Origin: Trueperaceae bacterium
GTDB taxonomy: Bacteria; Deinococcota; Deinococci; Deinococcales; Trueperaceae
Direction of reading: 5' to 3'
DNA: 64,000 bases
NCBI GenBank assembly: GCA_020431825.1
Contig: JAGQHN010000001.1
Coordinates: 1-64,000 of the forward strand
Part shown: positions 194 through 20,274 of the stretch, in pieces
Numbering within the stretch: the stretch's first letter is position 1
Layout of the letters: every line of letters begins with the position of its first letter
The notes under the pieces: model-generated
Seen by the model: only the letters and a program-made list of their open reading frames with translations
What the model was told of the DNA's origin: nothing
Database searches by the model: none
Translations under genes and position numbers: made by a program

Positions 194-2968
194 CTATTGC
201 TTACGCAGTAAATCGAGGTTTTTATAAAGGATTCCTAAAGGTCTATTGTCGTTTGGGGCAAAGGTAATCTGGTCACCATTGACATGGCTATAGCTTATGC
301 TCAGGTAATTCATGCCAGGGGAGCTGTTAACAAAGAACTTCATGCTCATTTCGGTGCCCTGATCGATTTGGGTAAGTTCTTGAACAACAGCCCCATTAAA
401 CCTTACCGTGACGTTTTGACCATCGATAGGGTTAAAGAAGGCCATGTCAACGCCAATGGGTTCGGCACCATTGGTAAGAAAGTCAAGCCTGGTTTCGGGC
501 CCAAGTGACCAGCGGAACTGATTGTTATCGGGCTCAGCCAAACCTGAAATCGTGAGGGTTTCCTCAGAAGGGGTTGCATTGACCTGCACTACCTGGGGAA
601 GAGGTTCGGTGACGCTGGCACGAATTACGGTGGGAGCAGTGAGACTGGTTTGAGGGTTTGCTACCAGTGAGGCTGGCACAACGGCTTCACTGGGGGCAGC
701 TATATCTTGAACGGCAAGCTGATTAAACAAAACTGCCATAGGGCGAGTATCTTGTTCGGAAATAACTGCCTTGTTTAAATTCCAGTCGCTATAAGCCAGG
801 CTTAAGGTGTTGGTACCAGCCTGGGTTTGCAGAGTATAGCTGCGATCAACATTGGTTTGTGCTGGTATGCCAGAGATGCTTTCAATCGTCTGACCGTTAA
901 AGCTTACGTCAACGCTCTGCCCTTCTATGGGGTTATAAAAACTCATGTCTAGCTGAAGAGTTGTGGCTTCTGGAGTCGTGATGGTCAAGTTACTACCCGG
1001 ACCTAGCGCCCAGCGCCTGAGCCCATCCTCGACAGCAGAAAAGCCTTCTGCGACGATGTTTTTGGCCTCGCTGAGTTTTGCCATGTCCTGACTTAGAAAT
1101 GCTATGACTTGGGTGCCAGGTTGAACTGCTGGGGTTTCTACAACGACGGGTTCTCGCACTTCTGGCTGAGGTGTATAAGCTACATTGCCAGGTTCAAAAA
1201 AACCAAGGGTCTGAAAAAAGGCAGCAAAAGGACTGCTATCATCACTGGTTTTTAAGCCGTCTAGCCCATTCCAGGCACGGTAAGCTAGCTCGAGCCTGTT
1301 AAGTCCTGCTTTTGCCGCAAGGGGAAAACTATCCTGTCGGAAGTCGCCAGCACTAAGCTCACCGTAATTTTTTACCAGCTCGCCATTAAAACGAAGCTCG
1401 AGCCCTTGCCCTGCAATCTGATTGCTAAACGCTACGGCCAGCTCTAAGGCTTTGTCTTCGGGTAAATAAAAACTTAGCTCTGAAGTTGGGCCGAGCCCCC
1501 AGCGACCATAATTGGCTTCAACCCCTCTCAGGCCGTCAATAAAGAGGCTCGAGGGTATCTCCACCATGGACACATTGGCTTCGTCCAAATCTAGTGGATG
1601 ACTCAGAGCGGCTATAACATAGTCAGGCAAAGTGCAAAGCTGAGCTTCACTTAACTGGAGCCGTTCGCTTTCACCCGGATAAATCCTGACGCTTTGGGGC
1701 AGATTGCCACCTTCTGGGTAAAGCGGGACATTCATATGCTGTAAATAGCCTTCTTGAATAGGCATAGTTAGCTGGCGCGTCCAGCCTTCGCCACTCACCT
1801 CAATGCTCAGATTGCGACTATTGGCACCCTCGAATTGTCCGGTAAAGCTAAGGTACTGATCCAGCTGACTGGCACTTTCCAGACGAAACTCGAGGTAGGT
1901 ATCTGCTTCACTATTTAGAAGAAAGATGCCATTTTTCAAGTCAAGCAGGCCGTTTGAGCGTACTTTACTCAGGGTCTGCAAGGGTTCGCTGCAAGCGCCT
2001 GAAAGTTGTGCCGAGCTGTTTATCAGCCAATCAGGCGAGAGGTTTGCCTGACCAAAAGCCTCTAAGAACAGCTCCCAGACTTCCCAGATCACGATTTTGG
2101 GTGGCTGTTCGCTAAAGGTAATGTCGTTTAAATAATCTGACATAGGCTCCCACGGCCCTTTACCTGTTTGGGCGACATTGACGATTTCTTTACTTAAACT
2201 ATATTGCAGAGCGCTGTAAAAAGGCCAGGCACTACCCGGTTCGCCATTTGAAAAGCTGGCGCCGACCAGCGCAATTTCAGGATAGCTGTCTCCAAAGAGG
2301 CCAGTGGTGGCTTCGGTCAAGCGTTCAAACGTAAAGACTTTATGCTCTTCAGGATAATAGCCTTGGGTCTCCAAAGAAGCTTTGAGTTCAGGGCTTGCCA
2401 GGTTATACAGGCTCGAGTCCGTGTAGGGCGATTCCCCCGTTTCTGTGAGGCTATACTCTACTGTTGCAATGCTGTCTAACGTTTCGGCGGCATTTTCTTT
2501 TAGGCTATCAGCCACGATCTGCGCTGCCAGGAGGGCCCCTTTGGAGGACCAGTGATGGTCAAGTCTTTGAAATAGGGGAAACTCAGCATTTAAATCTTCG
2601 GATTCAGCAAAAGCCGTTTTGACATCGGCAACCAAGACGCCTTCAGCGCGGAGGTACTCGAGAGCGTGATTATAGCGGTCCTGGAGGCTCGAGCTAAGCG
2701 GATAGTCTTCAGGCAATTTATCTTCATAGAGCCCAATTTTGGCCGGAGTTAAGCTGACAATCAGCTGAATACCTTTGGCTTCCAGAAGTTTCTTGATGAC
2801 AACAATGTGCTCGAGGGCTTTTTGGGTGGAAGTCGGATTATTGGCAGTGTAAAACCCGTACTCATCCTGGTGAAAAAGCCAGCCGTCCTGACCGGGTGGT
2901 AAAGGAGCAAGGCGCTGCGCCTGGGCTAGCGAAAAAAGGAGGACGAGGGCCAGAAACCATTTATTCAT
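194..2968 (-). CDS. AlgJ/AlgX-like O-acetyltransferase-type protein with three C-terminal jelly-roll repeats
   Basis: Exported protein of 924 aa. The first 18 residues are a signal peptide ending LAQAQ. An AlgJ/AlgX SGNH-like domain follows (about residues 20-310), with the family motif DHHW near residue 138 and a serine motif GASFS near 235. In AlgX/AlgJ the Asp-His pair and Ser form the catalytic triad that moves acetyl groups onto an exopolysaccharide in the periplasm. The C-terminal 450 residues hold three related segments, each starting around RW-x-LGP and containing FNPI-x-GQ-x-V-x-V-x-FNG, probably beta-sandwich carbohydrate-binding repeats. The start is ATG at 2968, which overlaps the preceding stop by 8 nt; the ATG at 2989 would add a poor N terminus before the signal peptide. 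Polysaccharide substrate unknown. Confidence 0.8.
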   Translation of the reverse strand: MNKWFLALVLLFSLAQAQRLAPLPPGQDGWLFHQDEYGFYTANNPTSTQKALEHIVVIKKLLEAKGIQLIVSLTPAKIGLYEDKLPEDYPLSSSLQDRYNHALEYLRAEGVLVADVKTAFAESEDLNAEFPLFQRLDHHWSSKGALLAAQIVADSLKENAAETLDSIATVEYSLTETGESPYTDSSLYNLASPELKASLETQGYYPEEHKVFTFERLTEATTGLFGDSYPEIALVGASFSNGEPGSAWPFYSALQYSLSKEIVNVAQTGKGPWEPMSDYLNDITFSEQPPKIVIWEVWELFLEAFGQANLSPDWLINSSAQLSGACSEPLQTLSKVRSNGLLDLKNGIFLLNSEADTYLEFRLESASQLDQYLSFTGQFEGANSRNLSIEVSGEGWTRQLTMPIQEGYLQHMNVPLYPEGGNLPQSVRIYPGESERLQLSEAQLCTLPDYVIAALSHPLDLDEANVSMVEIPSSLFIDGLRGVEANYGRWGLGPTSELSFYLPEDKALELAVAFSNQIAGQGLELRFNGELVKNYGELSAGDFRQDSFPLAAKAGLNRLELAYRAWNGLDGLKTSDDSSPFAAFFQTLGFFEPGNVAYTPQPEVREPVVVETPAVQPGTQVIAFLSQDMAKLSEAKNIVAEGFSAVEDGLRRWALGPGSNLTITTPEATTLQLDMSFYNPIEGQSVDVSFNGQTIESISGIPAQTNVDRSYTLQTQAGTNTLSLAYSDWNLNKAVISEQDTRPMAVLFNQLAVQDIAAPSEAVVPASLVANPQTSLTAPTVIRASVTEPLPQVVQVNATPSEETLTISGLAEPDNNQFRWSLGPETRLDFLTNGAEPIGVDMAFFNPIDGQNVTVRFNGAVVQELTQIDQGTEMSMKFFVNSSPGMNYLSISYSHVNGDQITFAPNDNRPLGILYKNLDLLRKQ

Positions 2969-4049
2969 CTGCACTACTGTCCATTTCATAAGCTACCGGG
3001 ATAAAGCGCTCTGGGAATTCCCAGATGACCAGCTCAGGGGGACTTTGTAAAAAGGCTTCATCTGCAAGATAAGTTTGCATCGGTTGAATGGGGCCTTTGC
3101 CTTCCAGCGCAGCATTAAGCACATCGGTCTGTAGTGCGGTCTTTAAGGCACCTTCAAAGTTCCAGGTGTCAATGGCGCTGTAGCTGGTACCAACCAGCGT
3201 GACAGGTACGCTAACCGTATCAAACAGGCCGCCGCTGGCCACTTGTCCTTCAGTGCTTTCCAGCTGAACTTGCTCATCGCCAGGGCCCATGGCTTTGAAA
3301 TTTCCCAGAGGGATAAAGTTCAGCAGGTCGCCCGTATAAGTTTCCTTGCTAGCAAGCTGGCTTGAAAAGCTTGCCAGATTAAAACTACCAAGTTCGTTAG
3401 CCAGTGCCCCAGCGACAACCCTCGCCCCATAAGGTGTCCAGTGAGTGTCAGTCTGCATAAAAACCTTGCCACCCGTTTTGGCCTCGAGCATGGGGGTGAG
3501 CAGGTCAGGAGCGCTTACCCCACTGGCAAGCAGCGCCTGTCTAAAGTTGTCATAGCGGTTTACGGTGTAATCAGGCAAATGATAGCGGCCCAGATTTTCT
3601 TCATAGACTCGGGCCTTGGCAGGCAGCAGCAAAACCACCAGATCAATGCCTTTGGCAGCAAGCTCAGCCTTTACCTGATTGATGTACTCGAGCTTAATTT
3701 GTGTTTCCGCAGCTTCAGCAGGGTAAAAGCTAAATTCTTCATCGCTAAAAAGCCAGTTGTCTTTACCGACCAGCACGCCTGAGCGACCGTCTTTAAAGAG
3801 TCCGTACTCGAGTACGCCCCAGGTATCTATGGCAAATTGCCGAAAACCAATTTGCTTGTTGAGATCAGCCTCAAAAGCGGCTGCCCATGAGCCTTTGACC
3901 AGATCGTGGTTCTGCAAATCAGGTAAGGCTGGAAAATGACTGAGCAGGCTGATGCTACCCAGAACCAGAATCAGTAAAAAAGAACTGATGGGCAAAATTC
4001 TGAGGAGGTTCAGACGCCGAGTTTGAGGAAGAGCTAAACTTTGCTGCAT
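2961..4049 (-). CDS. AlgJ/AlgX-like O-acetyltransferase-type membrane-anchored protein
   Basis: 362 aa with one N-terminal membrane segment (about residues 17-37) and a periplasmic AlgJ/AlgX-type SGNH domain. DTHW near residue 200 and GTSYS near 287 supply the Asp-His and Ser expected for the catalytic triad. The end of the domain (EGKGPIQPMQTYL) closely parallels the same region of the longer downstream paralogue (QTGKGPWEPMSDYL), so the two arose by duplication. It lies 9 nt downstream of algI with an AAGGA ribosome site and overlaps the next gene. Role by family: accepts acetyl from AlgI and passes it to a secreted glycan. It could also be called alginate O-acetyltransferase AlgJ or AlgX. 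Confidence 0.82.
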   Translation of the reverse strand: MQQSLALPQTRRLNLLRILPISSFLLILVLGSISLLSHFPALPDLQNHDLVKGSWAAAFEADLNKQIGFRQFAIDTWGVLEYGLFKDGRSGVLVGKDNWLFSDEEFSFYPAEAAETQIKLEYINQVKAELAAKGIDLVVLLLPAKARVYEENLGRYHLPDYTVNRYDNFRQALLASGVSAPDLLTPMLEAKTGGKVFMQTDTHWTPYGARVVAGALANELGSFNLASFSSQLASKETYTGDLLNFIPLGNFKAMGPGDEQVQLESTEGQVASGGLFDTVSVPVTLVGTSYSAIDTWNFEGALKTALQTDVLNAALEGKGPIQPMQTYLADEAFLQSPPELVIWEFPERFIPVAYEMDSSADE

Positions 4050-10506: not shown

Positions 10507-12177
10507 TTACGTTTTTGTAACAGTTGGGCCGGTATTTGGGCTGCTATCTGTGGGTTTAACCGCTTGGCGAGCGCTAAGATCTTGCAGCGTTTGTAAAAGC
10601 TGTCTGACTTCGAGGGGTTTGGTTAGATACGCTGACGCCCCATGCTCGAGCAGGCTCTTTACTCGCTGCGGAGTTGCATCAGCGCTCAAGATAACGACAG
10701 GTATGGCTGCAGTTTTTGGGTCAGCCTTGAGTTCCTCGAGCACCCTATCGCCAGATAGGCCAGGCATATGCAGATCAAGTAAAATAATGTCGGGCAGCTC
10801 CTGCCTTATGAGTTCAAGGCCTTTTATACCGTCGGTCGCCATATACAAAGTCATCTCTTTGTTCCGACTGATGATACTTTGCATAAGATTTCGGTTGGCA
10901 AGATTATCTTCGATATAGACCAGTTTCAGGTCACGCCCTAGTTCAGCTGGCTTTGTTGCTTGAATCTCTCTTAACGAGTCAGTAGCTGATTTTGCCGAGG
11001 TCTTTAATCTTAAAAAGAAGCTGCTGCCCTGCCCATACTTACTTTCAACCTTTAAGTTTCCCCCCATGGCCTCGACCAGATTTTTGCTGACCGTAAGGCC
11101 AATACCGGTTCCTTCTATATTGCTTTGTTCGGCACCGAGCCGGTTGAAAGCCATAAAGACATCGTCTAGCTTGTCTTCAGGGATGCCTATACCTGTGTCT
11201 TCTACCTCGAGGCTTACAAAACCGTCCTCAAGATAGCTGCGCAGAAAAATACTGCCAGCTTCTTTGTTGTACTTAATGGCATTTGACAGGAGATTTATAA
11301 GCACTTGCATTAGCCGCTTGGCATCTGCCTGTATATAGATAGGCGCTTCTGGCAGGCGGCAGTGCATGGCAATGCTGTGTTTACTTGCATCATGTTCGAT
11401 AAGGGCACAAGCCTCATGAACAGCCTTCCTCAGATCAATACTCTCCATATTAAGGGACATGCCGCCGCTTTCAATTCTGGCGATGTCCAAAACTTCATTA
11501 ATCATGCCGAGCAGATGTTTACCTGCTTTATGGACTTGCTGGGCGTAGTCCCTGGCTTTGTTTTGACTGACGAGCTCGAGCAGTTCAGAAAAACCAATAA
11601 TGGCATTTAGGGGGGTGCGCAGCTCGTGACTCATTTTAGAGAGAAATTCACTTTTGGTACGGTTGGCCCGCTCCGCTTCTTCTTTGGCTTCGCGCAGCTC
11701 GAGTTCTGTTTTTTTACGCAGGCTGATATCAACAATTTGATTGACCACAAACAAGATATTATCTGCCTCATCATAGACGTTTGAGACACTCAAGATGGCC
11801 CAAACAAGGCTGCCATCTTTATGCACATAGCGCTTTTCGCGTTTGAAATTCTCCTGCTTACTCTTATGCATAAGTGGCAAATAGTACATTTCTTCTTTGG
11901 TGTCATCCGGATGGGTGATGTCAGCAAAATGCCTGCCAATAAGCTCTTCCCTGGTGTAACCAAGCATTTCTAAAAGACTGGGATTAACTCCCAGGTAATA
12001 ACCGTCGCTGCTGACAATAGCCATACCCGTAGCCGAATGTTCAAAAATATGCTGGAATAGTTTTATGGCGTCTTTGCTCGAGCTAAAGCGTTTACTAAAG
12101 TCTAATGTGTCGGTCAAACTCTCTTTTTGTTGTGTTTTTAGCAAAGATTCTCTGGAAATCATTTGCACCGGAACCAC
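10507..12177 (-). CDS. Soluble hybrid histidine kinase (PAS-HisKA-HATPase-REC)
   Basis: 556 aa without membrane segments. PAS domain at about 40-160 ([20 protein letters not shown]), then a coiled linker. The phospho-acceptor His is in [18 protein letters not shown] (about 184). ATPase boxes are [17 protein letters not shown] and [12 protein letters not shown]. The C-terminal receiver (about 415-535) has phosphorylatable Asp in [10 protein letters not shown] and Lys in AYLTKPL. It senses a cytoplasmic signal through PAS; output partner unknown. Start uncertain: GTG 12177 or ATG 12162, neither with a clear SD. The orphan OmpR-type regulator 1.6 kb away is a possible partner. Confidence 0.88.
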
Positions 12178-12385
12178 CGCACATTTCTGAGCTAAGATTT
12201 TTACCTGAGGGCTTATCAGCTAAACCACACTCCAGGAAGTTTAAGAATTTAGTATTACGGTTCTGTTACTAAAGCCGTGAATAGCTCGGTCATTTACGCT
12301 TGTTTTACACTTCTTGTGTTCTGCAATTTTATTATTTATGAAGCAGGTTTCATCAAATGAGCAGAGCCTTTAAAAAGCTTATTTT

Positions 12386-13288
12386 ATGATTAAGTCTGTG
12401 CTGCTAAGACTGCTTATTTTTTTGGGTTTTGGGTTGGGGTTTTCCCAGGCTCAGCTTTGCACGGCCTGGTCTGAGACAGAGATTATGGGTTATCTGGACC
12501 CGCAGTATTTAGCTGAAGCCAGTGGCATAAGCCAATCTCTGGACTTTCCTGAAAGGTTTTATCAGGTGAATGATTCTGCCAGATCATTCCAGGTGTTTTT
12601 GACCGATGAGACAGGTAGAGTAAACTCGAGCTTTGACCTTGGTATTCCGCTGCGCGATGTTGAAGATAGTGATGTCGGCAATTGCGGCCTTGCAAACTGT
12701 CTGGTACTTGGAGATATTGGCGATAATTTGCGGCAGCGCGATACGATTGCCCTTTATCTTATTCCTGAACAGGAAAGCTACGCCTCAAATCCTCAGTTTA
12801 AGAAAATTAACCTGCGTTACCCTGATGGCAGCTATGACGCTGAAAGTTTGGCTGTCCGCCCAGACGGTAGTTTGTACCTTTTGACCAAGGCCAGTTTTAA
12901 CCTGTTAAGAACAGAAGCGGCCAGACTCTATAGACTACCTAAGCCAATTGCCGACTTACAGGATAATGAGACTCTAACGCTCGAGTATGTTTTAAGTTTA
13001 GATATTTATGTGCTGTCAGGTGTTTCTTTTGACTTTTTGAGTCATCTGGCGACATCTATGGATTTTTCGCCCGATGGGAAGAAGCTACTTATTTTGACCT
13101 ACGGTGATGCTTTTGAGCTCGAGTTTGAGCGTTTACTTGCGGGAGACCTGAAGGTTAATAAAATTGTGATGGACCGTAGCTTACAACAAGAGGCCATAAC
13201 TTATGTGGCTTCAGATGCGTTTATTTATACCGCTGAGGCTCGAGCGGACGCGCCCCCCGTTAAGAAGCGACGCTGTTTAAATCCTTAA
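12386..13288 (+). CDS. Secreted beta-propeller-like protein of unknown function
   Basis: 300 aa. Signal peptide of about 22 residues ending SQAQ. Repeated propeller-type blades are visible: EASGISQS, LVLGDIGDN, YDAESLAVRPDGSLYLLTK, ATSMDFSPDGKKLLILTYGDA and QEAITYVASDAFIYTAE. These resemble phytase-like or SdiA-regulated propellers that bind calcium through Asp/Glu. No enzyme can be assigned. No SD precedes the ATG. The C terminus overlaps the converging small membrane gene by 29 nt. Confidence 0.7.
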   Translation: MIKSVLLRLLIFLGFGLGFSQAQLCTAWSETEIMGYLDPQYLAEASGISQSLDFPERFYQVNDSARSFQVFLTDETGRVNSSFDLGIPLRDVEDSDVGNCGLANCLVLGDIGDNLRQRDTIALYLIPEQESYASNPQFKKINLRYPDGSYDAESLAVRPDGSLYLLTKASFNLLRTEAARLYRLPKPIADLQDNETLTLEYVLSLDIYVLSGVSFDFLSHLATSMDFSPDGKKLLILTYGDAFELEFERLLAGDLKVNKIVMDRSLQQEAITYVASDAFIYTAEARADAPPVKKRRCLNP

Positions 13289-13451
13289 GATTTGCAGGTC
13301 TCAGTGCCAGATTAGCAGCAGTTTGTGGTTCGTTTGTCCGGGGTTCACTGTAAAGGGGCTCGGTCATGGTAAAGGCCCAGATGAATAGCCAGAGAAAAAA
13401 GAGTAAAACAAAAGCAAAAATAAGACTTAGAAAGAGAATGACGTAAAACAT
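13260..13451 (-). CDS. Small single-span membrane protein (63 aa)
   Basis: One long hydrophobic helix (FYVILFLSLIFAFVLLFFLWLFIWAF) occupies the first half and a polar Asn/Pro-rich tail the rest. The ATG at 13451 has GGAG 6 nt upstream; an ATG at 13463 lies inside that site. The gene converges on the propeller-like gene with overlapping 3' ends. No family recognised. Confidence 0.55.
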   Translation of the reverse strand: MFYVILFLSLIFAFVLLFFLWLFIWAFTMTEPLYSEPRTNEPQTAANLALRPANLKDLNSVAS

Positions 13452-13759
13452 GATGGTCTCCAAGAACAGGTGTTCATCCAGAATTGAGTCTACCGCTGTC
13501 TTTTGCTTTGGCGCTGTGACGAGTGCACAGCGTTTTCTACTTAGAACCCAAAAGGGGCAGCACGGCTATCTCTCCAGTGCAGTATTACGTTAAGAACTAA
13601 CGAAAGTCTTAGTTGGGGGCAAAATTCAGGCTAAGTCTGTTAACTTTTCATCATATGCATAGTCTTATTACAGTTTTGTAAGAAACTTGTAAGCTTTGCC
13701 TTCCTATAATTTGTTTCAATTGAAAAGGAAGCCTGTTGCTTTCTTTGTCTGGAGTAGCG
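13452..13759. other. Intergenic region between divergent small membrane gene and response regulator
   Basis: 308 nt without a gene. It is rich in short A/T runs. The only interpretable elements are the direct repeats and TATAAT box described separately near 13675-13710. Confidence 0.6.
13675..13710 (+). promoter_or_regulatory. Candidate promoter with PhoB/OmpR-type direct repeats
   Basis: TTTGTAAG (13675-13682) and CTTGTAAG (13686-13693) are direct repeats with an 11-bp period, the geometry bound by OmpR/PhoB-family dimers. A perfect TATAAT follows at 13705-13710, with the second repeat about where a -35 box would be. The gene downstream encodes an OmpR-type regulator, so autoregulation is the natural reading. 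Confidence 0.5.
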
Positions 13760-14428
13760 ATGCCAAGGATTTTAGTTGTGGAAGATGACCCTGCGAGTCA
13801 CGAATTCCTTTGCAAGTTTTTAAAACGCGAAGGTCATGACGTGCTCTCTGCTATGGATGGTGGTCAGGCTTTAGAACAGGCAGCCCAGGCCGATATGATG
13901 CTTCTTGACGTTATGCTTCCGGTTATGAGTGGGCTCGAGGTTGCCGAGGCGGTTCGGCATGATCATCCTACAATGCCTATTCTCATGCTTACAGCACTGT
14001 CCACCACTGACGATGAAGTGCGGGGCTTAGAAACTGGCGCTGACGATTACATTACCAAGCCTTACGATTTGCGCGAACTGCGTGCTCGTATTCGGGCCCT
14101 GTTGCGCCGCTCAGGTTTAAATAATGAGTTGTCTTTTGGACCTTTACGCATCGTGCCTGAAACCAGAGAAGTCTATCTGGAAAATAAACTTTTATCCCTG
14201 AGCAAAGTGGAATATGACTTGTTGGTAACCCTTGCCCAGTACCCCGGTCATGTATTTAGCCGTGAGCGTCTCTTGGAGCGCATCTGGGGTTCTGACTACT
14301 ACGGTATGGACCGGGTAGTCGATGTGCGTATGGTGGCTTTGCGCAAAAAATTAGGGGAAGATGGGCGCGAGCCTCTCTTTATCGAGACTGTCAGAGGTCT
14401 GGGGTATAGATTTAAATTTGCTAACTAG
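13760..14428 (+). CDS. OmpR/PhoB-family response regulator (orphan)
   Basis: 222 aa. Receiver domain: acidic pocket EDD near residues 8-10, phospho-acceptor Asp in MMLLDVMLP (about 52), Thr in MLTA and Lys in DDYITKPYD. C-terminal winged helix from about 130 with FSRERLLERIWG and VDVRMVALRKKLGE. The ATG at 13760 is chosen because GGAG lies 5 nt upstream; a TTG at 13736 would add a non-homologous extension. No kinase gene is adjacent. A strong terminator follows immediately. Confidence 0.92.
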   Translation: MPRILVVEDDPASHEFLCKFLKREGHDVLSAMDGGQALEQAAQADMMLLDVMLPVMSGLEVAEAVRHDHPTMPILMLTALSTTDDEVRGLETGADDYITKPYDLRELRARIRALLRRSGLNNELSFGPLRIVPETREVYLENKLLSLSKVEYDLLVTLAQYPGHVFSRERLLERIWGSDYYGMDRVVDVRMVALRKKLGEDGREPLFIETVRGLGYRFKFAN

Positions 14429-14445
14429 GCAAACTTGAACGTATT

Positions 14446-14473
14446 AAGCGGTCAAGTTTGACCGCTTTTTTTT
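14446..14473 (+). terminator. Rho-independent terminator after the response regulator
   Basis: AAGCGGTCAA pairs with TTGACCGCTT (14458-14467) and is followed by a run of T to 14473. It abuts the stop codon of the converging ccdA-like gene. Confidence 0.9.
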
Positions 14474-15140
14474 ATGTCAGATTTGGAATGACTTCTGTCC
14501 AAAAGCCAAAAAGCCCAATACCTAAAAGTAAAATGCCTGAAATGCGGGTTAGGAGTTTGTAGTTTCGCCCGAGCCACCCAGTTGCACGGCGTTGCAGCGG
14601 CATAGCTAAAAAAGGTAACAAAACAAGGGGCCAACCAAAACCTAAGCCAAAGGCCAGAAAGTAACTGAGTTCGGTCGCTAGAGCAGAGGCGTTGCCACTT
14701 CCTACCAGGAATGCCGTAAGAATAATGGGGCCAGTGCAAGGTAGGGTCATGGGACCAAGTAAGAGGCCATAAAGGTAAGAAGTCAGAATGGGATTTTTTA
14801 GAATGGGTGCCTGTATAGTGGTGAGTCGGTTAAAAGGGTTTTTTCCTAACAGCATTAGGACACCCAAAACAATAACCACCAGATAAATAAGCGGTAATAG
14901 CCAGGGTAAGAGTCCAGCAAAAGATTTTTGCAGGAAATATAGCAAGAATCCAACTAAAATCATCATGCTGAGAACGCCAGCCAGTACCATAAGTCCCAGC
15001 CAGGAGCTGGCGGACTGTTTTTTGTCACTCCCTGCGTTCCCCGCTAAATAGGCAATTAAACCCGGATAGAGGGGTAATAGACAGACATTGGTGAGAATGG
15101 CACCATTGCCCAGTAAAAAGCCTTGTAAAAGGTGTTCCAT
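14472..15140 (-). CDS. CcdA/DsbD-type thiol-electron transporter
   Basis: 222 aa, six membrane helices. The two redox cysteines expected for CcdA are present: in NVCLLPLYPGLIAYLAG near residue 19 and in LPCTGPIILTAFL near 135. CcdA passes electrons from cytoplasmic thioredoxin across the membrane to periplasmic thioredoxin-like proteins. The gene directly downstream of tlpA-like (30 nt) forms the expected donor-acceptor pair. No clear SD. Confidence 0.87.
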   Translation of the reverse strand: MEHLLQGFLLGNGAILTNVCLLPLYPGLIAYLAGNAGSDKKQSASSWLGLMVLAGVLSMMILVGFLLYFLQKSFAGLLPWLLPLIYLVVIVLGVLMLLGKNPFNRLTTIQAPILKNPILTSYLYGLLLGPMTLPCTGPIILTAFLVGSGNASALATELSYFLAFGLGFGWPLVLLPFLAMPLQRRATGWLGRNYKLLTRISGILLLGIGLFGFWTEVIPNLT

Positions 15141-15170
15141 GATTTGCTTCGGACTTTAGACCTTTAAGCC

Positions 15171-15674
15171 CTAATAGCCCAGGAGTGCCAAAATCTCTTC
15201 GGTTGAGTGAATCCCCGTACTTAAGTCAGAAAAACTTCCGTCTGGCTGAATCACAAAATGAGGCGTGGAAGGTGGACTGGCGATCGAGCGGTCAAAGGTT
15301 TCAATAAGTGCTTTTAAGAGATCGGGTGTTGCTACGGCAAAGGTGAGATCAAAGCCTTCTTTTTCAGCGTAGGCTGCCAGAGTTTCATTGGGTAAATTAC
15401 CTTCAACGCTCACGGCGACAAAGACAACATTACTCGTTTCCCCTAGTTCTGCTTTGGCTGCTGTGACGTTACTAAGTTGCTTGCGGCAATTGCTGCACCA
15501 CGTGGCCATGGGTTCGACATAAACCGTCTGACCCTCAAAGCCACCCAGGGTAAAAGGTTCACCGGTAACGGCATTTGTTAGCTCGAGCATTTGCCAGGCC
15601 GGTCTATCCTGAGCAAAACTGAAACCAATCAGCAAACTGATGACTAAGCAAAAAACGTTAAAACTGGCTTTCAT
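15171..15674 (-). CDS. TlpA-like periplasmic thioredoxin
   Basis: 167 aa. Signal peptide of about 22 residues, then a thioredoxin fold with the active site ATWCSNC (Cys60 and Cys63). The cis-Pro loop is in SPPSTPHFVIQPDG. The CSNC centre differs from the usual CxPC, so redox potential may be shifted. Role: thiol reduction in the periplasm, with electrons from the downstream CcdA. Its ribosome site AGGAG (6 nt before ATG) is buried in the 3' arm of a perfect 17-bp inverted repeat, so translation may be controlled by RNA structure. Confidence 0.85.
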   Translation of the reverse strand: MKASFNVFCLVISLLIGFSFAQDRPAWQMLELTNAVTGEPFTLGGFEGQTVYVEPMATWCSNCRKQLSNVTAAKAELGETSNVVFVAVSVEGNLPNETLAAYAEKEGFDLTFAVATPDLLKALIETFDRSIASPPSTPHFVIQPDGSFSDLSTGIHSTEEILALLGY

Positions 15675-15680
15675 AACTAT

Positions 15681-15765
15681 ACTCCTTTAGGTTTTAGTGT
15701 GACGCATAAAGTTCGCAAAACTATCACGCGGTTTTAACGTTTTTCATCCTAAAACCTAAAGGAGT
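15681..15765 (-). promoter_or_regulatory. 17-bp inverted repeat sequestering the tlpA ribosome site
   Basis: ACTCCTTTAGGTTTTAG (15681-15697) is perfectly inverted at 15749-15765, with a 51-nt spacer. On the minus-strand transcript the proximal arm contains CCTAAAGGAGT, the SD of the tlpA-like gene. Folding would block it, as in a riboswitch, thermosensor or leader attenuator. The spacer has no obvious known riboswitch consensus. Confidence 0.6.
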
Positions 15766-15804
15766 CACGTGTTTGTCAAAAAATTGACCAAACCTCTTCT
15801 AAAG

Positions 15805-16257
15805 CTATAGACCTGGAAAAAGCGGGCGCCACCAAGGGATGCCGTAGGCCAGGAGGAGACCTGCTAGCACATAACCCACACTCGCGCGAACAAATTTTGC
15901 CTGGTCGGTCTTGGCCCGTTTTGCTAATGAATAGCCAAGTTGGGCGGCTACAAGGGCCAGAATCATAATGGTTAAATGCTCAACAGCAAAAAAGCGCTGA
16001 ATTTTATTGCCCATGACAGCCGCCATATCACCTGCGCTAAAGAGCCTGGCACCCAGGGGGCTGATAAAGTAAAGAATCAGCCCTATAACAAACTGAATAT
16101 TTAGGGCATTGGTAAAAATGAGGCCAGCGCGTTTTTCATTTATGCCCCAATGAGCTTTGGTAAATAAGCCTCTAAGTGCCAGGATAATGGCATAGACCCC
16201 TCCCAAAACAACAATCCAGCGAACGATACTATGCAGTGCTTTCAGGAAAATATACAT
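15805..16257 (-). CDS. Four-helix membrane protein of unknown function
   Basis: 150 aa with four membrane segments. Conserved-looking histidines lie in LHSIVRW (about residue 9) and VEHLTIM (about 92), which could bind haem as in small b-type cytochromes, but this is not established. The ATG has AAGGGAG 6 nt upstream. It is head-to-head with the flavoprotein gene; only about 45 nt separate the two starts. Confidence 0.6.
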   Translation of the reverse strand: MYIFLKALHSIVRWIVVLGGVYAIILALRGLFTKAHWGINEKRAGLIFTNALNIQFVIGLILYFISPLGARLFSAGDMAAVMGNKIQRFFAVEHLTIMILALVAAQLGYSLAKRAKTDQAKFVRASVGYVLAGLLLAYGIPWWRPLFPGL

Positions 16258-16289
16258 CTTATGCTCCCTTAGGTAATCCCCGTGGCCTT

Positions 16290-16295
16290 TATACT
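16290..16295 (+). promoter_or_regulatory. Candidate -10 element of a leaderless transcript
   Basis: TATACT followed by 6 nt and the ATG at 16302, with no SD. Same spacing as at three other starts in this window. Confidence 0.5.
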
Positions 16296-16301
16296 GTTTT
16301 T

Positions 16302-17321
16302 ATGACATCAAAGCCAGCAGGCAAACGTCCTCGTTATCTTATCGTAGGTGGGGGTATAGCTGGGTGTTCGCTGGCGTATGTGCTTGGTCAAGCAGGGCTC
16401 GAGGTAAGGCTGATCGAAGCTGGAGAGATTGGTAAAACCGGGGCCTCGAGTGTTCCTATGGCCCTTATGAATCCGCACCGTGGCAGAATGGCGAGGGCTT
16501 CAGAGCTAGATTTGGCGGGGCTTCATGCCATGCAAGAACTGGACCAGGATTTGAGGGCTCAGGGGCTGGATGCAGGCATTCACTGGACAGGCGTGTTACG
16601 TATTGCCTCCAATGAAAAACAGCGAAAAAAGTGGGCAAAGCTCACAGTTCAGCAGCTCGAGCCCTCCGAAATCTCTTCAGCTTACCACGCACCTTTTGGC
16701 GGCATTTTCAGTGCTGAGGCTGGCTGGCTCGAGCCAGACAAACTTCTGAGGGCGCTTAAACAGGCTGCTGAAGCAAAAGGGGTCCAATTTTTTGAGAATG
16801 TCAGAGTTCAGACACTTGAAACAGGCTTTAAACTAGAAACGACCGCAGGCATAGAAGAGGCGGACAAGGTCATTTTTTGTACCGGTGCCAGTGAAAACAG
16901 AGGCTTTGACTTACCCGAATTTGAACCTATGGCGGGTGATGTGATTGCTTTAGAAGCCAATATAACTATGCCTTACCCGATTGCCGGAGCAATTTACGGG
17001 ATGCAAAATAAGGGCCTCATTTATATGGGAGGCAATCACCGCGAGCGGCTCGAGCCTGAAGCAGAGGATATTGAGCGCTTAAAGGAAAGCTCGAGCTGGT
17101 TTCTTAAAGACCTGAAAGATTCCGCCATTACTCAGGTCTGGTCAGGCATACGGGCAAAATCGGCAGATAATAAGCCGCTCCTGACCGAACTGCATCCCAA
17201 TCTCTGGTTTTTTGGCGCTTTAGGGGGTCGTGGATTTCTTTGTTCCTACCATTTAGCTAACGTTTTGGCCAAAAAACTGGTCACTGGCGAATTGATAACA
17301 GAAAGCGAGGACTTAGTTTAG
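16302..17321 (+). CDS. FAD-dependent oxidoreductase, DAO family, MnmC C-domain-like
   Basis: 339 aa. N-terminal dinucleotide-binding fingerprint IVGGGIAGCSLAYVLGQAG with the ribose-binding acidic residue in RLIEAGE. GASSVPMALMNPHRGRM resembles the substrate loop of the MnmC oxidase domain (tRNA wobble-uridine modification), and the C-terminal GALGGRGFLCSYHLANVLA is the second FAD-contact region. A glycine/D-amino-acid oxidase role is the alternative. ATG 16302 is chosen over an upstream TTG/GTG extension because the FAD motif then begins near residue 14. Confidence 0.72.
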   Translation: MTSKPAGKRPRYLIVGGGIAGCSLAYVLGQAGLEVRLIEAGEIGKTGASSVPMALMNPHRGRMARASELDLAGLHAMQELDQDLRAQGLDAGIHWTGVLRIASNEKQRKKWAKLTVQQLEPSEISSAYHAPFGGIFSAEAGWLEPDKLLRALKQAAEAKGVQFFENVRVQTLETGFKLETTAGIEEADKVIFCTGASENRGFDLPEFEPMAGDVIALEANITMPYPIAGAIYGMQNKGLIYMGGNHRERLEPEAEDIERLKESSSWFLKDLKDSAITQVWSGIRAKSADNKPLLTELHPNLWFFGALGGRGFLCSYHLANVLAKKLVTGELITESEDLV

Positions 17322-17427
17322 CGGTAAATGCTCAGTATAAAGGTATGTGAATTTGACCAGATAATGTCATTTAGGATTCCAAGTGAATTTACTCCTTTAA
17401 TAGCTATAAACCGCTGACCTACCGAAG

Positions 17428-17919
17428 ATGAACGAACTACCAAGTTTTGAAAAAGAAATCACGATCACTGGAGAAAAGCTGGTGATTAAGAATGAACGCA
17501 TTAAAGCTCAGGAGTATATTGAGTTTTTAACGAGAACTGACTTAGGGAATCAATATCCCAGAGAGGATTTTGCCAGTAGAATTGCAACCTTGCTTCAAAA
17601 TATTCAAATTAGCTTGGTTGTGCGAAATGCCGAGCATAGCATTGTTGCTATATGCTTTGGACTGACTGATTTTGCCTACTGGCTCTTTTTAACCGACCTT
17701 GGTGTTACTAAGCACTATGAAAGAAAAGGTATTGGTAAAATCCTGGTTGCATTGGCACATGAGCTTGCCGGAGGAGAGAGAAAGATTATTCAAATTCTCT
17801 GCGCAGCAGATAATGCCATTCCTTTTTACCTTAAAGCAGGTATGAAAAAAGCAAAGGATATGATGGTGAAAGATACTATCGAATGGACGGCTTTTCAAGT
17901 AAAAAAAGAATTTGGCTAA
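17428..17919 (+). CDS. GNAT-family N-acetyltransferase
   Basis: 163 aa. The acetyl-CoA-binding segment is VTKHYERKGIGKILVALAHE (R-x-x-G-x-G/A at about 100-106), followed by NAIPFYLKAGMKKAKDMM, the usual GNAT C-terminal strand-helix. Acceptor unknown. The gene is AT-richer than its neighbours and lacks CTCGAG, a possible sign of recent acquisition. No convincing SD. Confidence 0.82.
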   Translation: MNELPSFEKEITITGEKLVIKNERIKAQEYIEFLTRTDLGNQYPREDFASRIATLLQNIQISLVVRNAEHSIVAICFGLTDFAYWLFLTDLGVTKHYERKGIGKILVALAHELAGGERKIIQILCAADNAIPFYLKAGMKKAKDMMVKDTIEWTAFQVKKEFG

Positions 17920-18043
17920 GGTTTTGCTCCAGAGACCGGAAACAAACTCTATAGGGTGCTCTTTTTCTAGTGCTTGTCCTGTCTGGTGATTTTTATACAA
18001 ATCTCGTAGTCCTGTTTGAAAAAATCTAAAGGTACTATGGCTT

Positions 18044-18841
18044 GTGTTGTCTCGTAATCATCAAGCTTATAGACCTGGTTTAGCTCGAGTAAAGCTTGCC
18101 CTGTTTTGGGCGCTCTTGGGAGGTCTTGGGGTTCTTGCCGTGTTTCCTTATCAGCTCGAGCTTCTAAGTGTTTCCCAACTAGACCAGCTAAAGCAGGCTC
18201 CTTTTCCACTCCCTATCCTTGCTGCTCTATCTGCGTTGCAAACAGGAGTTCTGTTATTGGGTTTGAGTTGGCTAGGATTGTTTTTGGGAGAAAAGCTTGG
18301 CCTTAAGTCAGCACTAGCCCATGCTTTAGTTAATAGACTTAGCATGCCAGAGTTTTCAAAAAGCTACGGTTTCCTGGCTGTTCTGACAGGGCTTATAGGT
18401 GCCTTTCTCGTTTTAGGGTTAGATAACGTTTTTAAACCCTTTATGCCACCAGCTAAGCAAGCGACTGATCTAACTATCAGTCTTTGGAAGCGTGCCCTGG
18501 CCTCTATTTATGGCGGCATTACCGAAGAGCTGTTGCTGCGTTTATTCTTAATGACCCTGGTTGTTTGGCTTGTTGCCAAAGTAACCCGAAGCGGCGTAGC
18601 TATACCTGCCTGGGTGTTCTGGTTCGGTATTATCAGCACAGCCATCTTATTTGGTTTAGGGCACCTCCCTGCGACAGCCGGTATATGGCCTTTAACAGCT
18701 ATCGTTATCACAAGAGCTATCGTGTTAAATGGTGTTTTAGGACTGGCCTTTGGGTTTCTTTACTGGAAAGCGGGCTTAGAATACGCGATGCTGGCCCATT
18801 TCTTAGCTGATATTGTGTTGCATGTTTTCCTTGGGAGTTGA
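18044..18841 (+). CDS. CPBP-family intramembrane metalloprotease (Abi-type)
   Basis: 265 aa, about seven or eight membrane helices. The three CPBP motifs are in order: GGITEELLLRLF (EExxxR, about residue 163), FGLGHLP (about 206) and HFLADIVLH (about 253). Family members are glutamate/histidine intramembrane proteases used in membrane-protein processing or bacteriocin immunity. GTG start with AAAGGT about 10 nt upstream. Stands alone. Confidence 0.85.
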   Translation: MLSRNHQAYRPGLARVKLALFWALLGGLGVLAVFPYQLELLSVSQLDQLKQAPFPLPILAALSALQTGVLLLGLSWLGLFLGEKLGLKSALAHALVNRLSMPEFSKSYGFLAVLTGLIGAFLVLGLDNVFKPFMPPAKQATDLTISLWKRALASIYGGITEELLLRLFLMTLVVWLVAKVTRSGVAIPAWVFWFGIISTAILFGLGHLPATAGIWPLTAIVITRAIVLNGVLGLAFGFLYWKAGLEYAMLAHFLADIVLHVFLGS

Positions 18842-18904
18842 GTCCGCACAGTTATGTACTAATGAGTAGCCAAATGATTTGCTCCAAAAATAAGCTTGTC
18901 AATT

Positions 18905-19333
18905 CTATAGCTCCTGCGCGATGCTTTGCGCCCAGGTTCGAACTCGGGTGGCTGCGCCTGCTGGCTGATTTTCCAGGTAGACGCTGGCAATCGTGATAGG
19001 CCATCGTTTTAGCTTATAGTTTTGGCGGTCAGCTTTAGGCTTGAGGACTCGAGCCTTTCCGTTAGCGAAGTAAGCTACTTTTTTACGAATCTCACTAACG
19101 CCCATTTCCCCTTTAAGATAGGCTAGAAAAACGGTTCTTAAGCCTTCTATGGCTGCTTCAGTAAACTTTGCTGGATGCTGCAAATTATAAGAAGCCACCG
19201 TCAGAAAATGTTCTGCGAGCAGCTCAGAGTCGTTATATTCCCAAACACCGATTTGTCCTAACTGTCCAAAACAGTCAAGTCCGTTTATTCTGCTGGCACC
19301 GCATTCGGGACAGGTTAAGGTTTGGCTTTCCAC
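18905..19333 (-). CDS. DUF5946-like protein with N-terminal zinc-type Cys pair
   Basis: 142 aa. CPECG at residues 8-12 could be half of a metal site; LTVASYNLQHPAKFTEAAIEGL is the helical core typical of DUF5946. The N terminus is GTG with GAGGG upstream and overlaps the preceding ydeI-like gene by 19 nt. Function unknown for the family. Confidence 0.65.
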   Translation of the reverse strand: MESQTLTCPECGASRINGLDCFGQLGQIGVWEYNDSELLAEHFLTVASYNLQHPAKFTEAAIEGLRTVFLAYLKGEMGVSEIRKKVAYFANGKARVLKPKADRQNYKLKRWPITIASVYLENQPAGAATRVRTWAQSIAQEL

Positions 19334-19905
19334 TGATTGGCCCTCTGATTTTTAGAAGCCAGCAAGGCTGTTTCGGCAATGCGTTTGGCTCTGGTTTCAG
19401 GTCTTTTGGTATTAATAATCCACTCCAAAATGCCGCGTTTGACAGAGCGAGGAAAGGCTTCCCAGTAGGCTCGAGCGTCAGGGTACTGAGAGATTGCCTC
19501 GAGCAAATCTATGGGAAACTCCAGATTTTCAACGCTATCGAGGCGTTCCCATGACCCGTCCTGCTTGGCAGCTTCAATCTTAGCCAGACCAGCAGGCATC
19601 ATTAGACCTGCCTTTAAATTACGCGCTATGCGTTCCTTATTGGGTCTTGACCAGCCAGAGCCTGCTTTGCGGGGGGCAAAGTAGAGCATACTTCGCTCCT
19701 CATCAAGTTTGCCGGGTTTGCTGTCAATCCAGCCAAAACAGAGTGCTTCTTCAACGGTTTCATCGTAGCTGACAAAGGGTTTCGCGGTTGCTTTTTTATA
19801 CCTTATTAGCCAAATTCCTTCGCTATTCTGGTGATTTACCCTCAGCCAGTCACGCCACTGGGCTCGAGTCAGAATGAGCACACTGTTTTCAGGTGGGTTT
19901 GCCAT
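19315..19905 (-). CDS. YdeI/OmdA-family protein
   Basis: 196 aa. WLIRYKKA, SYDETVEEALCFGWIDS and SMLYFAPRKAGSGWSRPNKER mark the YdeI (OmpD-associated) family, and the C-terminal YWEAFPRSVKRGILEWIINTKRPETRAKRI is the OmdA helical region. The family is linked to peptide or bacteriocin resistance in some bacteria, though the biochemical role is not known. It sits 6 nt after acpS and overlaps the DUF5946 gene. Confidence 0.8.
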   Translation of the reverse strand: MANPPENSVLILTRAQWRDWLRVNHQNSEGIWLIRYKKATAKPFVSYDETVEEALCFGWIDSKPGKLDEERSMLYFAPRKAGSGWSRPNKERIARNLKAGLMMPAGLAKIEAAKQDGSWERLDSVENLEFPIDLLEAISQYPDARAYWEAFPRSVKRGILEWIINTKRPETRAKRIAETALLASKNQRANQWKAKP

Positions 19906-19911
19906 GGCGTT

Positions 19912-20274
19912 TTAAGGCCTCTCCAGTACCACCACAGCCGCTGCCATATCTTTGTCATGGGTCAGACTCAGGTGAGCAACCCAGCCTCGCTTATTCATTT
20001 CTGCCTGGATTTCCGGGCTAAATTTCAGGACGGGTTTGACCCCTTCCATCTCGACCCAGACATCCTGCCAGCCGTGGGTTTCGGGCCAGCATTTTTGAAA
20101 GGCCTCTTTAGCACTAAAGCGCGCCCCAATGCTTTGCAGAGGGTCAGCCTTTGAGCGGCAATACCTGATTTCTTCGGGGGTAAAGTGGCGGTACAAAAAG
20201 CGCTCAGGGTGGCGCTGCCAGACGGCTCTTAGGCGCTCTAAATTCGCCACATCTATGCCAACAGCAACAATCAT
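19912..20274 (-). CDS. acpS: Holo-[acyl-carrier-protein] synthase
   Basis: 120 aa, the usual AcpS length. GIDVANLERLR holds the Mg-binding Asp and ARFSAKEAFQKC the Glu/Lys catalytic motif. It transfers phosphopantetheine from CoA to acyl carrier protein. Its ATG overlaps the rpiA stop as TGATG, so it is translationally coupled. Confidence 0.92.
   Translation of the reverse strand: MIVAVGIDVANLERLRAVWQRHPERFLYRHFTPEEIRYCRSKADPLQSIGARFSAKEAFQKCWPETHGWQDVWVEMEGVKPVLKFSPEIQAEMNKRGWVAHLSLTHDKDMAAAVVVLERP

Follow-up and report, generated by a model that had tools for sequence, protein, structure and literature searches.

Our subject is the short leader in front of a thiol-redox gene on the minus strand of a 64,000-nucleotide stretch of Trueperaceae DNA, the whole of which we call the window. 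The gene, tlpA (15171..15674, minus strand), encodes a TlpA/ResA-like thiol-disulfide oxidoreductase of 167 residues with an apparent signal peptide and a CSNC motif, the best family matches of which fall below the curated cut-offs. Downstream on the same strand is a gene for a membrane protein (14472..15140). It matches no family model at its cut-off, and we call it CcdA/DsbD-like (ccdA) from the partnership with TlpA and the conserved gene order alone. An OmpR-family response-regulator-like gene (13736-14428) lies near the pair. On the upstream side, a co-directional gene for a membrane protein of 150 residues (15805..16257, minus strand) stops 130 nt before the tlpA ATG; it is a new neighbor, a point to which we return below.

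Two interlaced inverted repeats

The leader holds an inverted repeat, the 5' arm of which, A (15749..15765, minus strand; ACTCCTTTAGGTTTTAG), is complementary at 17 of 17 positions to the 3' arm, A' (15681..15697, minus strand; CTAAAACCTAAAGGAGT), across a gap of 51 nt. If two mismatches are allowed, the pairing reaches 22 nt (91%). The Shine–Dalgarno (SD) sequence of tlpA, AAAGGAG (15688-15682, minus strand), sits entirely within A', and the tlpA ATG (15674-15672) comes 6 nt (ATAGTT) past the end of that arm. The original prediction had described exactly this arrangement of arms, spacer, SD and start codon, and the letters confirm it throughout. It had also called the element symmetric, pointing to AAAGGAGT on the other strand. 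The word is indeed there, but any inverted repeat that contains an SD produces one automatically; on the plus strand, it could serve just one 13-codon frame.

A second perfect inverted repeat, of 14 bp, is interlaced with the first. Arm B (15731..15744, minus strand; AAAAACGTTAAAAC) lies within the loop of A:A', and its partner B' (15651..15664, minus strand; GTTTTAACGTTTTT) lies in the signal-peptide codons of tlpA (codons 4-8, SFNVF). Read 5' to 3' on the minus strand, the order is A, GATG, B, a 33-nt spacer, A', ATAGTT, ATG AAAGCCA and B'. An arm order of A-B-A'-B' is the topology of a pseudoknot.

How unusual is this? We surveyed about 1.6 Mb of the source genome, which is a metagenome-assembled genome (MAG). 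In 1.62 Mb, A:A' exceeds in length every other perfect inverted repeat whose arms lie 20-150 nt apart. B:B' ties for second longest with four pairs elsewhere in the same sample, and no other two repeats with arms of 11 nt or more interlace. In three order-2 Markov copies of 1.6 Mb, perfect repeats over the same gaps reached at most 14 bp; among 20,000 random 200-nt leaders matched to the local composition, two had a repeat of 14 bp and none a longer one. Chance models stop at 14 bp against the 17 bp observed, so the earlier description of the stem as far beyond chance stands. A perfect stem of more than 11 bp over an SD-like word occurs at 1 of 1393 open reading frames (ORFs), that of tlpA.

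A short segment bounded by perfect inverted arms might instead act as DNA, the arms serving as operator-type sites for a protein or as sites at which recombination inverts the small segment between them; the response-regulator-like gene nearby speaks for such an element. We consider this very unlikely. The genome has no other copy of the arm with fewer than 2 mismatches, matches with 2-3 mismatches barely exceed the reversed control, no recombinase was recognized by eye among the ORFs of 11000-20000, and the spacer has the same orientation in a relative that has no arms. The idea of a repeat family or operator was rejected on the genome-wide arm search, which at up to 3 mismatches gave no clear enrichment over that control.

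The leader and its neighbors in related genomes

We searched 61 genomes and 27 contig loci for TlpA. Among 39 genomes of the family, only one has a leader that matches the window's; the other leaders are too divergent to align. That one, G001 (= L009), is a MAG labeled Trueperaceae, of the same genus as the window's genome (G000); a second relative, G002, is more distant. The tlpA genes of the window's genome and G001 are 73% identical in nucleotides, with just 48% agreement at third codon positions, and identical residues use the same codon in only 54% of cases. Yet a core of 23 nt in the spacer, CGTGATAGTTTTGCGAACTTTAT (window 15707-15729, minus strand), is identical in the congener (L009 2946-2968). 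Set against that 48% agreement, 23 identical bases in the leader look to us like a strong sign of constraint on the core. The core is retained in G001 along with GTCAAtttcTTGAC and TTTAGGATG, all at nearly equal spacing. A small palindrome, GTCAAttttTTGAC (15775..15788, minus strand), the TTGAC of which resembles a -35 element, is identical there at 13 of 14 positions. It is also equally distant from TTTAGGATG in the two genomes, and its pattern, GTCAA-N4-TTGAC, has 4 matches in 0.9 Mb of genome.

The arms tell a different story. None of the four is present in the G001 leader, which has a different sequence at each of their sites and folds no better than its shuffles (z = -0.6). The arms occupy the non-conserved parts of the leader, whereas the core, TTTAGGATG and GTCAAtttnTTGAC are conserved.

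What the core does could be sought in a peptide. A small frame before tlpA might regulate it by translational coupling, leaving the repeat secondary. In G001, the core falls within such a frame, MKARDSFANFIFQTRRYKENV (L009 about 2936-3003), which has a GGGAG site, crosses the core and shares an ATGA with the start of tlpA; a similar frame with an SD-like site, MSEAEIETYRDEIGNIIILVW, is found in G002 (L038 about 1356-1421). The ATGA overlap suggests translational coupling in the relatives. In the window, however, there is just one ATG upstream, and the core does not share its frame, which makes DNA or RNA a likelier target of the constraint than a peptide. The core is also identical at every third position, compared with the 54% same-codon use in tlpA, which weakens the case for a peptide further by placing the constraint on nucleotides, not residues. 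We therefore rate a conserved leader peptide as the most improbable of the explanations considered here. The core is possibly a regulator site or an RNA element. A regulon built on it was considered and rejected: a 21-nt probe within the core has no second match in the G000 genome, and one copy with 2 mismatches in G001 lies inside a coding region.

The neighborhood of tlpA has changed as well. G001 and G002 share a row of mutM, one or two thioesterase genes, tlpA and ccdA (names of neighbors in the relatives were read from translations). The window's genome carries its thioesterase orthologue on a different contig from tlpA. The upstream 150-residue gene adjoins the same FAD oxidoreductase in G002, there on a contig other than that of tlpA, and only in the window's genome, of the three, does tlpA–ccdA stand beside it. 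Because the order common to both relatives is broken in G000, the tlpA–ccdA unit was probably relocated in the window's lineage, with a junction within 15789-15804. Beside the relocated thioesterase, we looked for what might be left of the old junction and found nothing. That the inverted repeats and the relocation belong to the same lineage is a coincidence worth noting, one drawn from few genomes and no proof of cause.

As for how the repeats arose, template switching is documented to make perfect hairpins in one event (PMC8794818). In the alignment, A' is similar to the relative's sequence around the SD, and A is largely unlike the relative outside TTTAG, which is why we read A as the copy; A was probably copied from A', and B likewise from B'. 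The repeats share with the documented hairpins a perfect reverse-complement copy, confined to one lineage, next to its presumed donor and absent from the relative (PMC8794818). They differ in needing two interlaced copies and in having no close sister sequence that displays an intermediate. A single inverted copying event as the sole origin is excluded by the A-B-A'-B' order, which calls for two copying steps. Of a possible ancestral imperfect repeat or of switch points, G001 displays just a TTTAG/CTA seed, and with 73% nucleotide identity in tlpA it is too distant a relative for this comparison.

As a separate observation on these genomes, CTCGAG is strikingly common: it occurs 2.3 times per kb in G000 (1.6 Mb sampled) and 2.0 times per kb in C468, a G001 contig of 26 kb, where a random 6-mer would be expected at about 0.24 per kb. 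Its abundance recalls HIP1, the highly iterated palindrome known from cyanobacteria.

RNA folding and transcript ends

The leader RNA of the window folds with z = -4.3 against shuffles. Computed duplex energies are -24.3 kcal/mol for A:A' and -12.9 kcal/mol for B:B'; the cross pairings are weak (A:B, -3.8; A':B', -3.4 kcal/mol). The two stems may be unable to coexist, since only 4 nt link A to B, a short span for a second stem of 14 bp.

The original prediction took the stem to be part of normal tlpA mRNA, opened by a ligand, a protein, temperature or translation of the leader. It has its attractions: the SD is wholly in a stable stem, a thiol-redox gene pair could plausibly be under regulation, and a frame of 7 codons (ATG AAA AAC GTT AAA ACC GCG TGA) begins between A and B. 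Against it, the sole relative that shares the leader has no stem. What that relative kept is the core in the spacer and not the arms. At -24 kcal/mol, the stem is very stable for a thermosensor, and nothing of like strength competes with it, as the cross pairings attest. A search of Rfam at a relaxed E-value gave just sub-threshold chance matches, the best far below the gathering score, and the structure is not kept in the homologous leader (n = 1). With neither arms nor a stable fold in the congener, the repeat, on this comparison, is not a conserved riboswitch or thermosensor; it looks instead like something that arose locally and recently. We regard a sensor of any of the proposed kinds as unlikely.

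The prediction that the ribosome site would be hidden fares better, for one class of transcript. In computed folds, the SD is paired in long RNAs: its probability of being unpaired is 0.001-0.003 for 5' ends from 15790 to 15765 (0.002 at 15790, 0.001 at 15765). A 5' end at 15760 gives 0.54, and 5' ends at 15755-15740 give about 0.7. An mRNA that starts at or upstream of 15765 is thus expected to have its SD more than 99% paired. Since the 5' end of the RNA sets the pairing, any lock hinges entirely on the site of transcription start.

Where might that be? Scores for a sigma-70 promoter in the leader do not rise above those of shuffled sequence, and with a model trained on the genome's own upstream regions, the leader stays within the shuffled range. 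If the conserved TTGAC (15779-15775) were a -35 element, it would put the start near 15744, leaving arm A out of the mRNA; no good -10 sequence was found after it. Nor was any terminator-like site found on the minus strand across 15400-16400.

A strong rival reading is that the repeats are a neutral by-product: two template-switch copies left in a fast-evolving leader near a rearrangement point. Transcription would then start inside the leader, giving an mRNA with neither 5' arm nor lock, and the 23-nt core would be the functional element. The location of the arms, outside the conserved portions of the leader, speaks for this, as does the absence of the stem from every homologue, and a start set by TTGAC would lie below arm A. 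The missing -10 sequence speaks against it. So does the placement of the repeats, the longer of which coincides exactly with the SD and the shorter with the first codons, where pairing matters most. We hold this to be a real possibility, though we would expect it to be wrong about twice as often as right.

A proposed lock on read-through RNA

The reading we favor, tentatively and at somewhat short of an even chance, is that this lineage-specific repeat acts in cis to lock the ribosome site of tlpA in read-through mRNA. Template switching would probably have made the repeat in a lineage where tlpA–ccdA acquired a new co-directional gene upstream. In mRNA entering from upstream of 15765, the stem would form once A' had been made and nearly all of the SD would be paired, so that read-through RNA from the new upstream gene would hardly be translated into TlpA. 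Transcripts beginning in the leader itself, below about 15760, would miss the outer portion of the 5' arm and leave the SD mostly open. We infer the existence of both kinds of transcript, the direction of copying and any selective role. Template switching with no function behind it leaves the same picture, which counts against the lock, and one relative is too few to polarize the changes or to demonstrate selection.

Such locks have precedents. In Bacillus subtilis, a leader hairpin of sigG has been described as a lock that acts on read-through RNA alone: a stem of 20 or more pairs is proposed to cover the ribosome-binding site (RBS) when RNA reads through from the operon upstream, while RNA made from the promoter of sigG itself is unable to form it (PMC5942855). 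The lock proposed for tlpA would be similar, with the difference that both sigG transcripts are known, whereas those of tlpA are putative. The phage T4 genes e, soc and I-TevI also have structures that sequester the RBS, which long early transcripts bury in a helix; late transcripts, which do not carry the 5' strand, are translated (PMC3014915). In these phage genes the structure is conserved and the 5' strand contains known late promoters; the tlpA structure, unlike theirs, is confined to one lineage and accompanied by a second, interlaced repeat. That second repeat invites a bolder version, in which both repeats have been selected as a double lock of the pseudoknot type, covering the SD and codons 4-8, and built by template switching after the new neighbor arrived. 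We think this improbable.

A long stem over an SD, however extreme statistically, need not be a conserved switch: comparison with a single relative showed that conservation lies in the spacer and not in the arms. If the lock does work, the birth of a translational lock would be tied to the relocation of a gene in one lineage, and template switching would have supplied new regulation in one or two steps.
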